This document shows, piece after piece, positions 40,607 through 49,682 of a stretch of 64,000 nucleotides of DNA. This DNA is from Hymenobacter sp. 15J16-1T3B (lineage in GTDB: Bacteria > Bacteroidota > Bacteroidia > Cytophagales > Hymenobacteraceae). Location: contig NZ_JAJFAV010000010.1 of NCBI RefSeq assembly GCF_020711235.1, forward strand, positions 1 through 64,000. The letters run 5' to 3'. The translations under genes were made by a program, and so were the position numbers. Every line of letters starts with the position of its first letter. Positions within the stretch are counted from its first letter, which is position 1. Below the pieces are notes generated by a model. That model saw nothing but the letters and a program-made list of their open reading frames with translations, searched no databases and was not told the origin of the DNA.

Positions 40607-40862
40607 GGCGTTGGGGTAGGCTAGGGGTGAGACATGCGTTAGGGGCCAGCCGCTAACGGGTACTAAGATGGCCTGCCCAATCAGCCCGCGCTGGGCTATT
40701 CGCCCAGCGACGTATGCGCACGGAAATACAGTAGCGACCTGTCGCTCAACCGCCGCTTCGGTCGTTGGTCGATGAAGGATTGTTGTTGGTCTATAAATCA
40801 GATAACAAGCAGCTTACCCGCGGCTAAATCGGTATATTCACTTGGGCTCAACGCAACGAACG

Positions 40863-42038
40863 ATGGGTATGGCTCAGGCAATAAACCGGGTGCTGCGGCA
40901 GATAGACGAGCGGCGCGTGCTGCGCCACGCACTGTTTTGGCTGGTGGTCGGGCTGCTGGAGGCCGCGCTGCTGCGCTACAAGTGCGTGTTTGTGTACCAC
41001 GCCGGGCTGGCCCTGCTGTTTTCGCTGGTGCTGGTGCTCTGCGCGTTCGGGCCGGCCACCTACGCGCTGCTCTACGGGGTGCTGCCCGAGCTGTGGGCCG
41101 AGCAGCCCCGCTACGGGCGCCTGCTGCTGCGGGCGCTGGGCTGGCTGAGCGCGGCGTCGGTGCTGTCGTACGCCGTGTGGGCCTGGGGGCTGCTGCCGCT
41201 GCGGGCCGCCGTGGCGGCCGGGCCCCTGGAGCAGCACCTGGCCTTGTCGCCGGCCATGCACCTGCCCCTGCTGCTCACGGCCGGGGCCGCCGCCGGGCTG
41301 TGGGGCTACCGGCGCTGGCGCCGCAAGGAGCTGCTCAACGAGCAGCTGCAGCAGGAAAACTACCGGGCTGAGCTGCAGCTGCTGCAAGCCCAGATTCACC
41401 CGCACTTTCTCTTCAACACGCTCAACAACCTCTACGCCCTCACGCTTCGGCAATCAGACGAGGCGCCGCGGGTGGTGGAGCGGCTGCGGGCGCTGCTGCA
41501 CTTTGTGGTGGAGCAGGGCCACGCGCCGCTGGTGAGCCTGCGCGACGAAGTAGCCCTGCTGCGCAACTACGTGGCCTTGGAGCAGCTGCGCTACGGCCCG
41601 CGCCTGACAGTGGTCTTCGAGGCCCCCGCCATGCCCGCCCGGGCGGGCATGGCGCCGCTGCTGCTGCTGCCGCTGGTCGAAAACGCCTTCAAGCACGGCT
41701 CCGCCGAGCAGGTGGGGGCCGCCCGCATCGTCATTCGGCTGGGCCTGGACGCCGACGACCTGATCTGCTCCATCCACAACTCGAAAAACGCCGATGCACC
41801 CGCCGGAGCCGGCGGCATCGGCCTGAGCAACGTGCGGCAGCGCTTGCAGCTGCTCTACCCCGGGCAGCACCAGATCGGGGTGGAGGTGCGGCCTGATACG
41901 TTCACCGTGCAGCTGCGCCTACGCCTGCGGGAACTGGAGGCCGCCGCGCCGCCCCGCCGCCGGGCTTGGCAAGGCGCGGGCCGGCGTCGGCAGTCGGTGC
42001 GGATGCGGGCGACCCTGGCCCATCGGATACCCGCATGA
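40863..42038 (+). CDS. LytS-type sensor histidine kinase
   Basis: A 391-aa membrane kinase: four probable transmembrane segments (about 20-150), then the His_kinase (PF06580-type) domain with QIHPHFLFNTLNNLYAL (phospho-acceptor His181), N-box LLPLVENAFKHGSAEQ, and G-box GGIGLSNVRQRL. The last 40 residues are basic and Ala/Arg-rich. The stop overlaps the next gene's start (ATGA). With the LytTR regulator downstream it forms a two-component system. The signal is unknown; its periplasmic loops are short, so sensing may occur in the membrane. Confidence 0.93.
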   Translation: MGMAQAINRVLRQIDERRVLRHALFWLVVGLLEAALLRYKCVFVYHAGLALLFSLVLVLCAFGPATYALLYGVLPELWAEQPRYGRLLLRALGWLSAASVLSYAVWAWGLLPLRAAVAAGPLEQHLALSPAMHLPLLLTAGAAAGLWGYRRWRRKELLNEQLQQENYRAELQLLQAQIHPHFLFNTLNNLYALTLRQSDEAPRVVERLRALLHFVVEQGHAPLVSLRDEVALLRNYVALEQLRYGPRLTVVFEAPAMPARAGMAPLLLLPLVENAFKHGSAEQVGAARIVIRLGLDADDLICSIHNSKNADAPAGAGGIGLSNVRQRLQLLYPGQHQIGVEVRPDTFTVQLRLRLRELEAAAPPRRRAWQGAGRRRQSVRMRATLAHRIPA

Positions 42039-43153
42039 GCGCCGTGCTCCGACACCGGGTCGTCCGGCACGGGCTGTTCTGGGCCGCCATACTGGCCTTT
42101 TCCCTGATCATTCAGCTGCCCGCGTACTGGGGCAACGGCACCCGGCTATACGTGATTGGGTTGTTTTTCAATCAGTTGCCGGCCTCGATGCTGGCCACCT
42201 ACCCGCTGCTGTACTGGCTGCTGCCCCGGCTGATGCGGCAGCGCCAGCCCCTGGCGTTTGGGCTGCTGCTGACCGCGTGGGTGGCCGCCTGCGCCCTGCT
42301 GACGATGCTCACCGTCATCTGTTTTGATTTGGTGATAATGCCCCGGTTGTTTCACGCCCCGATTGACCCGGCGTTTCACCAAGTGGGCTACTGGCACCTG
42401 AATTACACCTTTTTCATCACCGTGCTTACGGCCGGCATTGCCGTGACGGTGAAAATCACCCGCGAGTGGGAAACGCAGCGCCGCCAGCGCCAGCAGCTGC
42501 GGCAGCAGCGCCTGCGCACCGAACTGCAACTGCTAAAGGCCCAGCTGCAACCGGCTTTCCTGTTCGGCACGCTTCGGTCGCTGCACCGCCTCACGGCCGC
42601 CAAGGCGCCCGAGTCGCCGGGGGCGGTGCTGCACCTGGCCGAACTGCTGCGCTACATGCTCTACGAAAGCCCCCACGATACCGTGCCGCTGGCCGACGAA
42701 GTGGCCATGATGCGGCGCTACGTGGCGCTGGAGCAGCTGCGTCTGGGGCGCCGGGTGGAGGTGTCGCTCAACTTCAGCGGCGCGTTTGCCGACTACGTCA
42801 TCGAGCCGCTGCTGCTGCTGCCGTTTCTGGAAAACGCGCTCCGCCACGGCACCGGCGCCGCCCTGGAGTGCGCCTGGATCAGCATCGACCTGGTGGTGCG
42901 CCACGACCGGCTCGTGCTCAAAGTCATCAACAGCCAGTTGCCCAGTGCGGTGGCCTGGGCGGAAGGCGCGGGCCTGCGCCGCGTGCGCCAGCGCTTGGAA
43001 CATCACTACGCCGGCCGCTACCGCCTGCAGGTGGTGCCGGAGCCCGACACCTTCCTGATCATCCTGCAGCTGCCGCTCACGGCGCGGGCCCAACCGGAGC
43101 CGCGCCGGCTGCCCCTCGCGGCGGCCGCCTCTTTTCAGCCGCAACTGCCATGA
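42035..43153 (+). CDS. LytS-like pseudokinase lacking the acceptor histidine
   Basis: A 372-aa paralogue of the preceding kinase with four predicted transmembrane segments (about 15-145). The H-box is QLQPAFLFGTLRSLHRL: Ala174 replaces the acceptor histidine and Gly178 replaces the Asn. The N-box remains (LLPFLENALRHGTGAA), and the G-box is altered (GAGLRRVRQRL). It could therefore not autophosphorylate in the normal way, but may still bind ATP and pair with the intact kinase. Both ends overlap neighbours by 4 bp (ATGA), giving tight coupling. Confidence 0.9.
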   Translation: MSAVLRHRVVRHGLFWAAILAFSLIIQLPAYWGNGTRLYVIGLFFNQLPASMLATYPLLYWLLPRLMRQRQPLAFGLLLTAWVAACALLTMLTVICFDLVIMPRLFHAPIDPAFHQVGYWHLNYTFFITVLTAGIAVTVKITREWETQRRQRQQLRQQRLRTELQLLKAQLQPAFLFGTLRSLHRLTAAKAPESPGAVLHLAELLRYMLYESPHDTVPLADEVAMMRRYVALEQLRLGRRVEVSLNFSGAFADYVIEPLLLLPFLENALRHGTGAALECAWISIDLVVRHDRLVLKVINSQLPSAVAWAEGAGLRRVRQRLEHHYAGRYRLQVVPEPDTFLIILQLPLTARAQPEPRRLPLAAAASFQPQLP

Positions 43154-43854
43154 AACTAAAGTGCTTGCTGGTCGACGACGAGCCCCCGGCCCTGGAAGTG
43201 CTCGAATCTTACGTGCGCGAGGTGGCCCACCTGCAGCTGGTGGGCACCTGCCAAAACGCCCTGCAGGCCTTCGACGCGCTGCAGCACCAGCCCGTCGACC
43301 TGCTGTTTCTCGACATCAAGATGCCCAAGATGCTCGGCACGGACTTTTTGCGCAGCCTGCGCCACCCGCCCCAGGTCATCTTCACCACCGCCTACCGCGA
43401 GTACGCCTACGAAGGCTTCGAGCTCGACGCGGTGGATTACCTGCTCAAGCCCGTGTCGCTGGAGCGTTTTCTGAAGGCCGTGGCCAAAGCCGGCAAACCC
43501 GACCTGGCGCCGCCGGCCGAGCCCGCCCCGCCCGCCGCCAACCCCGACGCCTTCCTGTATTTCCGCGTCGACAGGAAGATGGTGAAGGTGCTGCTGCGCG
43601 ACGTGCTCTACGTGGAGGGCCTGAAGGATTACGTGAAGATTCACTGCGTGGCGGGGCCGCCGCTCGTCGTGAAGCAAACCATCAACGGCATGGAGCAGAA
43701 GCTCTCCGAAAGCAACTTTCTGCGCGTGCACCGCTCGTTTATCGTGGCCCTGGACAAGGTGCGTACCTTCAGCCCCCGCCACCTGGAAATAGCGCAGCAA
43801 GAGGTGCCCATCGGCCGCCTGTACCGCCCGCAGGTCAGCGAGGCGCTCAAGTAA
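43150..43854 (+). CDS. LytTR-type response regulator
   Basis: A 234-aa cytoplasmic regulator: receiver domain (about 1-120) with acidic pocket Asp9/Asp10, phospho-acceptor Asp55 (LLFLDIKMP), and LLKPVS lysine, then a Pro/Ala linker and a LytTR DNA-binding domain (about 140-232) with FLRVHRSFIVALDKVR. LytTR domains bind paired 9-bp repeats spaced by about 12 bp; I see no certain site in the upstream region. It is the last gene of the three-gene operon. Confidence 0.95.
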   Translation: MKLKCLLVDDEPPALEVLESYVREVAHLQLVGTCQNALQAFDALQHQPVDLLFLDIKMPKMLGTDFLRSLRHPPQVIFTTAYREYAYEGFELDAVDYLLKPVSLERFLKAVAKAGKPDLAPPAEPAPPAANPDAFLYFRVDRKMVKVLLRDVLYVEGLKDYVKIHCVAGPPLVVKQTINGMEQKLSESNFLRVHRSFIVALDKVRTFSPRHLEIAQQEVPIGRLYRPQVSEALK

Positions 43855-43866
43855 GGCGCCTCCGCG

Positions 43867-44331
43867 CTACTTGCACGGCTCCTTGCGGCGCGTGTCGATG
43901 ACGTAGGCAATGCGCCAGCCCTGGGGCAGCTTCACCAGCTGAAACGAGTTGTAGCCGCAGTGGCTGAACTTGTTGTCGAGGTAGAACTGGTAGGGCGTCC
44001 AGACGCTGGCCAGCTGGGCGTCGATGAGCACCCGCTCGAAGCTGATGCGCTCATCCCAGACCTCTTTGTGCGGCGTACCTACGGCCTGCAGAAATTCCCG
44101 CGGGCTTTCGGTCATGACCTGCGGGCTGCCGCCGCGGGTGCTGATGGTGTGCAGCACCACCGTCGGGGCCAGGGTGCTGCGCACCACGGCGCTGTCGCCC
44201 TTGCGCAGGCCCTCGAAAAAGCGGGTGACGGTGGCCTTGACGGCTTCGGTTTCGGCCGGGGCCGGCGCGGTGGTTTGGGCCCGGGCGGCCGGGGCGGCCA
44301 GCAGTAGGCAGGGGAGGAGCAGAAGGCGCAT
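43867..44331 (-). CDS. Secreted SnoaL/NTF2-like protein
   Basis: A 154-aa protein with signal peptide (LLLLPCLLLAAPAARAQ) and an NTF2-like cone domain: EAVKATVTRFFEGLRKGDSAVV helix, then VLHTISTRGGSPQVM, ERVLIDAQLASVWTPYQFYLD, and the C-terminal strand GWRIAYVIDTRRK. NTF2-like proteins serve diverse binding or lyase roles, so no activity can be assigned. It is convergent with the LytTR gene, 12 bp apart. The start was placed at the ATG opening MRLLLLPC. Confidence 0.82.
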   Translation of the reverse strand: MRLLLLPCLLLAAPAARAQTTAPAPAETEAVKATVTRFFEGLRKGDSAVVRSTLAPTVVLHTISTRGGSPQVMTESPREFLQAVGTPHKEVWDERISFERVLIDAQLASVWTPYQFYLDNKFSHCGYNSFQLVKLPQGWRIAYVIDTRRKEPCK

Positions 44332-44634
44332 GGGGGAATAAGGAAGATGTGACGGGCAAAGAAACCGCCGCGCGGGCCAGCGTTGCACGCCCGGCCGCCC
44401 CCCCGCGCCGGCCGCGGCGGCTGCGCTACCCGCGTTGCGCTGGCCATTCCCGACCGACGCCCGCCCCCGCCGCGGCGGCTGCGGCGGCCAATTTTTAACC
44501 CGTCAGAAGTCAATTCGGTGGGAATAAGTGCAGGGCGTAGTACCTTTACCTCAGTAAGTTCCGCTACCTGCGCCCGGCCCGCTGCCGCGTTGGTGCCGGC
44601 GCCTTTCACTCATTTTCCCTTTTCTATCGACTGC
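44332..44634. other. Divergent intergenic region, GC-rich
   Basis: No gene seen in these 303 bp. A 15-bp direct repeat GCCGCGGCGGCTGCG occurs at 44411-44425 and 44469-44483 in a very GC-rich segment. TACCTTTA at 44541-44548 is a near match to the -7 box, 87 bp before the next plus-strand gene. Confidence 0.5.
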
Positions 44635-49414: not shown

Positions 49415-49682
49415 GGGACGAGGGGCTAGGTGAACGAATAAGTTCCGGGCGACGGCCGGAGGCCCGCACCCACCGAAAAATATTCTGTGTCACTGCCGGC
49501 CGCCGGCTTATTCTACTAACTACCGGCGCTCATCGACAGACAACCGCCCGCCGGGCACCAACAACGCTCCCGGTCCGGCGGCAACTATCCGCCCCGCCGC
49601 GCTGTTACCAAGGACCCGCGACCCGGGCCAGCGCCGGGCGTTTTGTTACCTTCGTTTCCCACGGCTCATTTGCTTTCGTCTC

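Follow-up and report, generated by a model that had tools for sequence, protein, structure and literature searches.

A LytS-type kinase homologue lacking its acceptor histidine is kept beside an intact kinase and one LytTR regulator in Hymenobacter and its relatives

In Hymenobacter sp. 15J16-1T3B, a LytS-type kinase homologue without the canonical phospho-acceptor (K2) is co-encoded with an intact kinase of the same type (K1) and a single LytTR response regulator, and the arrangement is old and under purifying selection. The three genes occupy positions 40863-43854 of the 64,000-nucleotide stretch that we analysed (positions 1 to 64,000 of contig NZ_JAJFAV010000010.1, hereafter the window), with ATGA overlaps at both junctions (Table 1). 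Because related species keep the K1-K2 pairing, the dead copy probably regulates the live kinase rather than being a gene in decay. More specifically, sequence and analogy together make it reasonably probable, in our judgement, that K2 is a maintained pseudo-histidine kinase—an accessory subunit that pairs with and tunes K1 in a three-component LytS/LytS'/LytTR system.

Table 1. The three-gene module of the window, with candidate binding sites and candidate targets nearby
Feature	Position	Strand	Description
K1	40863..42038	+	LytS-type (PF06580) histidine kinase, 391 aa, catalytic residues intact
K2	42035..43153	+	LytS-type pseudo-histidine kinase, 372 aa
Response regulator	43150..43854	+	receiver (Response_reg) and LytTR DNA-binding domains (Pfam), 234 aa
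Acceptor His181 codon of K1 (CAC)	41403..41405	+	
Ala174 codon of K2 (GCT)	42554..42556	+	acceptor site
LytTR-type direct repeat GTCGTTGGTC-N11-GTTGTTGGTC	40761..40791	+	candidate regulator binding site, ~105 bp upstream of K1
Small secreted protein, 117 aa	40253..40606	-	divergent from K1; candidate target or ligand
PAP2-family secreted (lipoprotein-like) protein, 448 aa	48068..49414	-	candidate target
Direct repeat as above, in three imperfect copies, period 21	49514..49565	-	weaker candidate site, 100 bp upstream of the PAP2 gene

Both kinases pass the Pfam cut-off for PF06580 (25.2 bits), K1 with 82.3 bits and K2 with 65.0 bits; the top NCBIfam match of the regulator was BtsR, below cut-off. 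K1 carries the acceptor motif QIHPHFLFNTLNN with His181 present, whereas the K2 motif, QLQPAFLFGTLRS, has Ala174 and Gly178 and lacks the histidine of the PHFLFN motif. These coordinates, motifs and overlaps, which we read directly, are as an earlier note on this DNA had given them. Its statement that K2 retains the N-box holds for the window protein (LENALRHG), but the glycine box is also changed (GAGLRRVRQRL, against GIGLSNVRQRL in K1). Among the 20 PF06580 matches in the 6.33-Mb genome, K2 scored lowest, and the other 19 all have the acceptor histidine. An AlphaFold model of K2 (pLDDT 73, pTM 0.43) confirms the kinase fold only; its top structural match was GanS (6swk), the protein to which sequence comparison likewise leads. 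A search for a sigma-70 promoter found none. Convergent with the regulator gene, on the minus strand at 43867-44388 of the window, lies a gene for a putatively secreted 173-aa protein.

The tandem arrangement was found at no fewer than 27 loci in 25 genomes, representing two families of one order, and its gene order is constant (G and L numbers below are our handles for genomes and loci). K2 relatives at E<=1e-60 occur in at least 23 of the 204 genomes of the window's family, 20 of them with the tandem; in G008, G013 and G014 a K2 relative is present, but there is one kinase only, with its histidine kept. Those 20 genomes are also the ones, of the 204, with a regulator at least 78% identical to that of the window; identity then drops to 61%. 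Further searches of 390 genomes of the order, 222 of another family and 36 of one genus added six tandem loci, five in family f11 (L086, L087, L122, L140 and L141) and one, with a divergent K2 sequence, in the window's family (L143). The regulator of L141 lies beyond the contig end, and a second copy of the module in G111 is split across two contigs. Since the searches were limited by E-value and scored only five (order search) or nine (both family searches) candidates per genome, divergent tandem loci were probably missed.

Among named species, Hymenobacter sp. CRA2, H. edaphi, H. duratus, H. fodinae and H. jeollabukensis have K2 relatives of 81-84% identity, and in all five a histidine-less K2 follows a histidine-bearing K1 (in H. 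duratus the end of the contig truncates K1). With the same alanine in these species and in five close orthologues at 83-85% (the two sets overlap), a sequencing error at 42554, which the earlier note had raised, is practically excluded. Single-kinase loci combine one kinase with one regulator in 43 of 44 cases, according to a profile search that covered 1.5 kb of most flanks and whose profile included the tested sequences; the one remaining locus (L075) has an additional short match upstream of its kinase gene, a match that we took to belong to that gene.

We read ten catalytic positions from a single alignment of the 27 tandem and 44 single-kinase loci. All ten are intact in K1 at 27 of 27 tandem loci, and the single kinases keep the acceptor histidine in 44 of 44, with nine positions intact in all 44 and the first glycine in 42. 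The acceptor histidine of K2, by contrast, is gone from 26 of the 27 loci, where the site, with the exception included, reads A 13, P 3, T 3, D 3, Q 2, L 1, S 1 and H 1; the letters of the acceptor region vary as freely (GTLRS, DTLGT, NTLHT and so on). Of the conservation that the earlier note had looked for, gene order held throughout, whereas the replacement residue varies, and alanine itself is conserved in the nearest group only. The note's main proposal, an active kinase and a maintained pseudokinase sharing one LytTR regulator, agrees with what the sequences suggest, no close K2 orthologue with the histidine having been found; the recent random loss that it had named as the alternative is rejected, as the close K2 orthologues found are all histidine-less and the loss is old. 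The exception, L140:3337-4506, belongs to the second tandem locus of G447; it keeps the histidine (QINPHLLFGTL) while its N-box is replaced by IEKIIQQV, and, judged by these residues, it is dead by another route and more FasC-like. In a separate case, the K2 of G123 (L091:2714-3870) is split into two overlapping frames beside an open K1 and an open regulator, which is either a natural knock-out or an assembly error.

The ATP-site residues of K2 bear on whether it could itself be the catalytic partner, its CA domain phosphorylating His181 of K1 in trans within a K1-K2 heterodimer. The N-box asparagine is kept by the window K2 and 23 others (24 of 27), so that ATP binding may remain in many K2 proteins, and the second G-box glycine survives in 16 of the 26 rows with letters, both of which speak for such a role. 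The same glycine is lost in the other 10, however, the N-box asparagine in three of 27, and the G-box asparagine is kept in only three of 26; with these residues eroded in part of the loci, catalysis by K2 is not general, and the complete catalytic site of K1 in 27 of 27 loci means that K1 needs no donor. We therefore hold trans-phosphorylation by K2 to be quite unlikely and retain the reading of K2 as an accessory, tuning subunit.

To place the pair in time, we used a tree of 53 rows under the LG+C20 mixture model, with the columns of the H-, N- and G-boxes removed and the K2 of L143 included. All 14 K1 sequences formed one clade (100/100) and all 14 K2 sequences another (98/93), with the single kinases outside both, from which it follows that the pair is older than the main group of tandem loci; a first FastTree had given the K2 clade a support of 0.67 and the K1 clade 0.0. 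An AU test rejected Hymenobacter K1 and K2 as one clade at p-AU 0.0135, a value weakened by the clade having been named after a tree was seen. On the separate clades and the AU test together we reject a recent duplication inside Hymenobacter; inheritance and transfer between the two families appear indistinguishable here. The K2 of L143 groups with K2s of f11 (97/75) and its K1 with Hymenobacter K1s (85/61), and we make no claim of horizontal transfer for this locus, given that both branches are long and flagged as such. Because L140 keeps its histidine inside the K2 clade, loss of the acceptor needs at least two changes on the tree; a regain in L140 would look the same as repeated loss elsewhere.

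Selection on the three genes was estimated from 10 pairs of five close loci, giving a median dN/dS of 0.32 for K2, 0.42 for K1 and 0.14 for the regulator. Within K2, the DHp region had a pN/pS of 0.18, against 0.40 for the membrane part, 0.38 for the CA part and 0.68 for the tail; the DHp region of K1 gave 0.17 (borders approximate for both proteins). These ratios indicate that K2 is under purifying selection like K1, most tightly in the DHp/dimerisation region. They also bear on the suggestion that K2 is simply decaying after a duplication, or lost its histidine recently and by chance, for which the frameshifted copy of G123 and the eroding ATP-site residues could be cited. As 26 of the 27 copies are open in two families, evolve under purifying selection and fall in one old clade, selection and age exclude decay, and we regard it as extremely improbable.

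Pairwise distances across 18 loci were correlated most strongly between K1 and K2 (r 0.84), followed by K1 and the regulator (0.68) and K2 and the regulator (0.57), with 0 of 2000 permutations reaching each value; both kinases diverge faster than the regulator (means of 0.42 for K1, 0.47 for K2 and 0.18 for the regulator). Co-inheritance alone yields correlated distances, so the excess for K1-K2 is only suggestive. In a different role, K2 would form homodimers and, independently of K1, serve as a decoy that binds the regulator or as a phosphatase that removes its phosphate. Its most constrained part, the DHp region, also contacts regulators, and the stop-start overlaps allow separate complexes; yet the distances co-vary more for K1-K2 than for K2 and the regulator, and the acceptor region of K2 varies freely, although neither point is decisive. 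We consider this role unlikely, while giving it some weight. A K1-K2 heterodimer, in which the earlier note had K2 possibly sensing or restraining K1, is what we infer instead, from the co-operonic coding, the constraint on DHp, the co-divergence of K1 and K2 and the published analogues.

The direct repeat upstream of K1 offers a candidate site for the regulator. In 20 of 20 main-group loci examined (21 less that of G039), the repeat pair matches 14-18 of 18 positions at 97-117 bp upstream of K1, a match reached by 0/200 shuffles each; the motif was read from the same loci, so the shuffles overstate the repeat, but its constant position is independent of that. Outside the main group, L087 has a match of 14 (0/200 shuffles) and L086 one of 13 (1/200), and in the other four of the six tandem loci (L122, L140, L141 and L143) the repeat does not stand out (27 to 158 of 200 shuffles). 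At single-kinase loci, matches of at least 13, located 90-111 bp upstream and reached by at most 3/100 shuffles, were found in 15 of 18. The spacing in the window (N11) fits published LytTR repeats, which the consulted part of the source describes as usually separated by 12 bp, with 11 or 13 also occurring (PMC6193735). Within the genome, the window repeat is the sole exact match; places with at most two mismatches number 12, this one included, against 19 for a control, and most near matches are accordingly due to chance.

At the limits used, neither Pfam nor NCBIfam gave a match for the 117-aa protein encoded divergently from K1. Of the 20 main-group tandem genomes, 17 carry a homologue within ~1.3 kb upstream of K1, on the opposite strand, and in five of the 17 another open frame intervenes. 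In G039 it sits at the far end of the module contig (L036, G039:C7:1-3617; L161, G039:C7:70500-75281), which is 75,281 bases long with identical 281-base ends; the contig is thus probably circular, a plasmid-like replicon, and the gene probably again upstream of K1. A search for K2 in a plasmid collection gave no match. In G081 and G123 the homologue is not adjacent to the module. Homologues also flank single kinases (G008, G014, G141, G153 and G191), and six other stretches of 8-15 kb (L155-L160) have up to three each in the absence of K1, K2 and regulator relatives, so the gene is not exclusive to the module. Two further observations concern this side of the operon. In L125, L126 and L135 a gene for a second secreted protein, of ~162 aa, separates K1 from the small divergent gene. 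Loci outside the main group have a different small secreted protein in the divergent position (L086:4519-4923, L087:1228-1632, L143:1653-2066 and, in L140, upstream of K1), which may be distantly related to the 117-aa protein; that of L087 has weak, below-cut-off similarity to Por_Secre_tail and DUF3244.

A near match to the repeat at 49535-49565 overlaps a third copy, upstream of the PAP2-family gene. PAP2 homologues occur in the examined flanks of nine of 27 tandem loci, against 0 of 10 single-kinase or small-protein-only stretches; identity is at least 59% among the window, L091, L124, L128, L133 and L134 and 32-48% for L140, L141 and L123. In L091, L124, L128, L133 and L134 the homologue adjoins the regulator gene on the opposite strand. 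The repeat upstream of PAP2 scores 16-17 of 18 in the window, L124 and L134, 14 in L091 and L123 and at most 13 in the rest, and elsewhere among 98 relatives the top PAP2 match was 44% identical. Counting against a target role, the same-genus tandem genomes G002, G003 and G006 gave no PAP2 match at E<=1e-60. The PAP2 gene is a plausible optional target of the regulator.

Taken as a mechanism, the accessory-subunit reading would have K2 sit in the membrane beside K1, pair with it through the DHp region and shift it between kinase and phosphatase states on input at K1, K2 or both, K1 being the catalytic sensor and the source of the regulator's phosphate. The regulator would bind the repeat at 40761-40791 and control its own operon and probably also the divergent small secreted protein; where a PAP2 gene is present, this too may come under its control. 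For this reading we counted the conserved repeat with its divergent gene, together with the FasB-FasC and RocA-CovS interactions measured by others; against it, the histidine kept by the K2 of L140, the N-box asparagine of 24 of 27 K2 proteins and the repeat missing from four of the six outside loci. A bolder version, which we find doubtful, would make the module an old LytS-LytS'-LytTR class in which the divergently encoded small secreted protein is sensed by an obligate heteromeric receptor made of K1 and its demoted paralogue, a self-contained circuit driving a PAP2-family enzyme where one is present and carried at least once on a plasmid-like replicon.

Regulatory pseudo-histidine kinases are known from few well-studied bacterial cases (DivL, RocA and FasC), and among the matches listed from the open-access literature we found no published description of an operon that retains a histidine-less LytS-type kinase alongside an active one. 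An active/dead pair kept in 25 genomes, set against single-kinase relatives that keep the histidine, provides a natural comparison for the benefit of acceptor loss, and the module, being small and having a predicted binding site, lends itself to tests of heterodimer signalling.

Known systems resemble parts of this arrangement. DivL of Caulobacter, a histidine-kinase homologue reportedly repurposed as a regulator with CckA, is a cell-cycle protein of another kinase type that is not known to share one operon with its kinase. LytTR regulatory systems (LRS) consist of a LytTR regulator and a membrane inhibitor, with no known kinase; the module is not of this kind, its regulator having a receiver domain and its partners being kinase homologues. 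All three proteins share the domain make-up of an ordinary LytS/BtsS-type kinase with its LytTR regulator, and a candidate direct-repeat site is shared too, but where the 44 single loci have one active kinase per regulator, here a second, histidine-less kinase is added. The kinases of FasBCA are of a different family from K1 and K2, and RocA is not known to be encoded with covRS.

Nearest in layout is FasBCA of group A Streptococcus, which has one response regulator and two membrane sensor kinases that are co-transcribed (PMC12675982, in the part consulted); the gene order and ATGA overlaps of the window show, from the genes alone, the same plan of two tandem kinases and one regulator. In that portion of the report, FasB and FasC give a heterodimer two-hybrid signal and no homodimer signal, and FasC, the proposed pseudokinase, keeps and needs H246 while its kinase domain is dispensable, whereas here the pseudokinase lacks the histidine and its partner is complete (PMC12675982). 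A pseudokinase supplying the acceptor histidine thus does not describe K2 in 26 of 27 loci, L140 being the exception, and a catalytic K2 acting on His181 of K1 would reverse the FasB-FasC division of labour as described there. RocA of the same species, in the available text, is a pseudo-histidine kinase that interacts with active CovS and acts through it, still with an H246 that is dispensable; in K2 the histidine is gone and the gene lies inside the kinase operon (PMC7028121). Lastly, in evolved C. glutamicum, the dead kinase ChrS raises output via a paralogous kinase and needs its DHp domain to do so, though, as the excerpted account has it, the heterodimer signal of the native kinases was significant and that of the frameshifted protein was not, which counts against pairing (PMC9491836). 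The ChrS pseudokinase is a laboratory-evolved frameshift, whereas K1 and K2 are an old natural pair.
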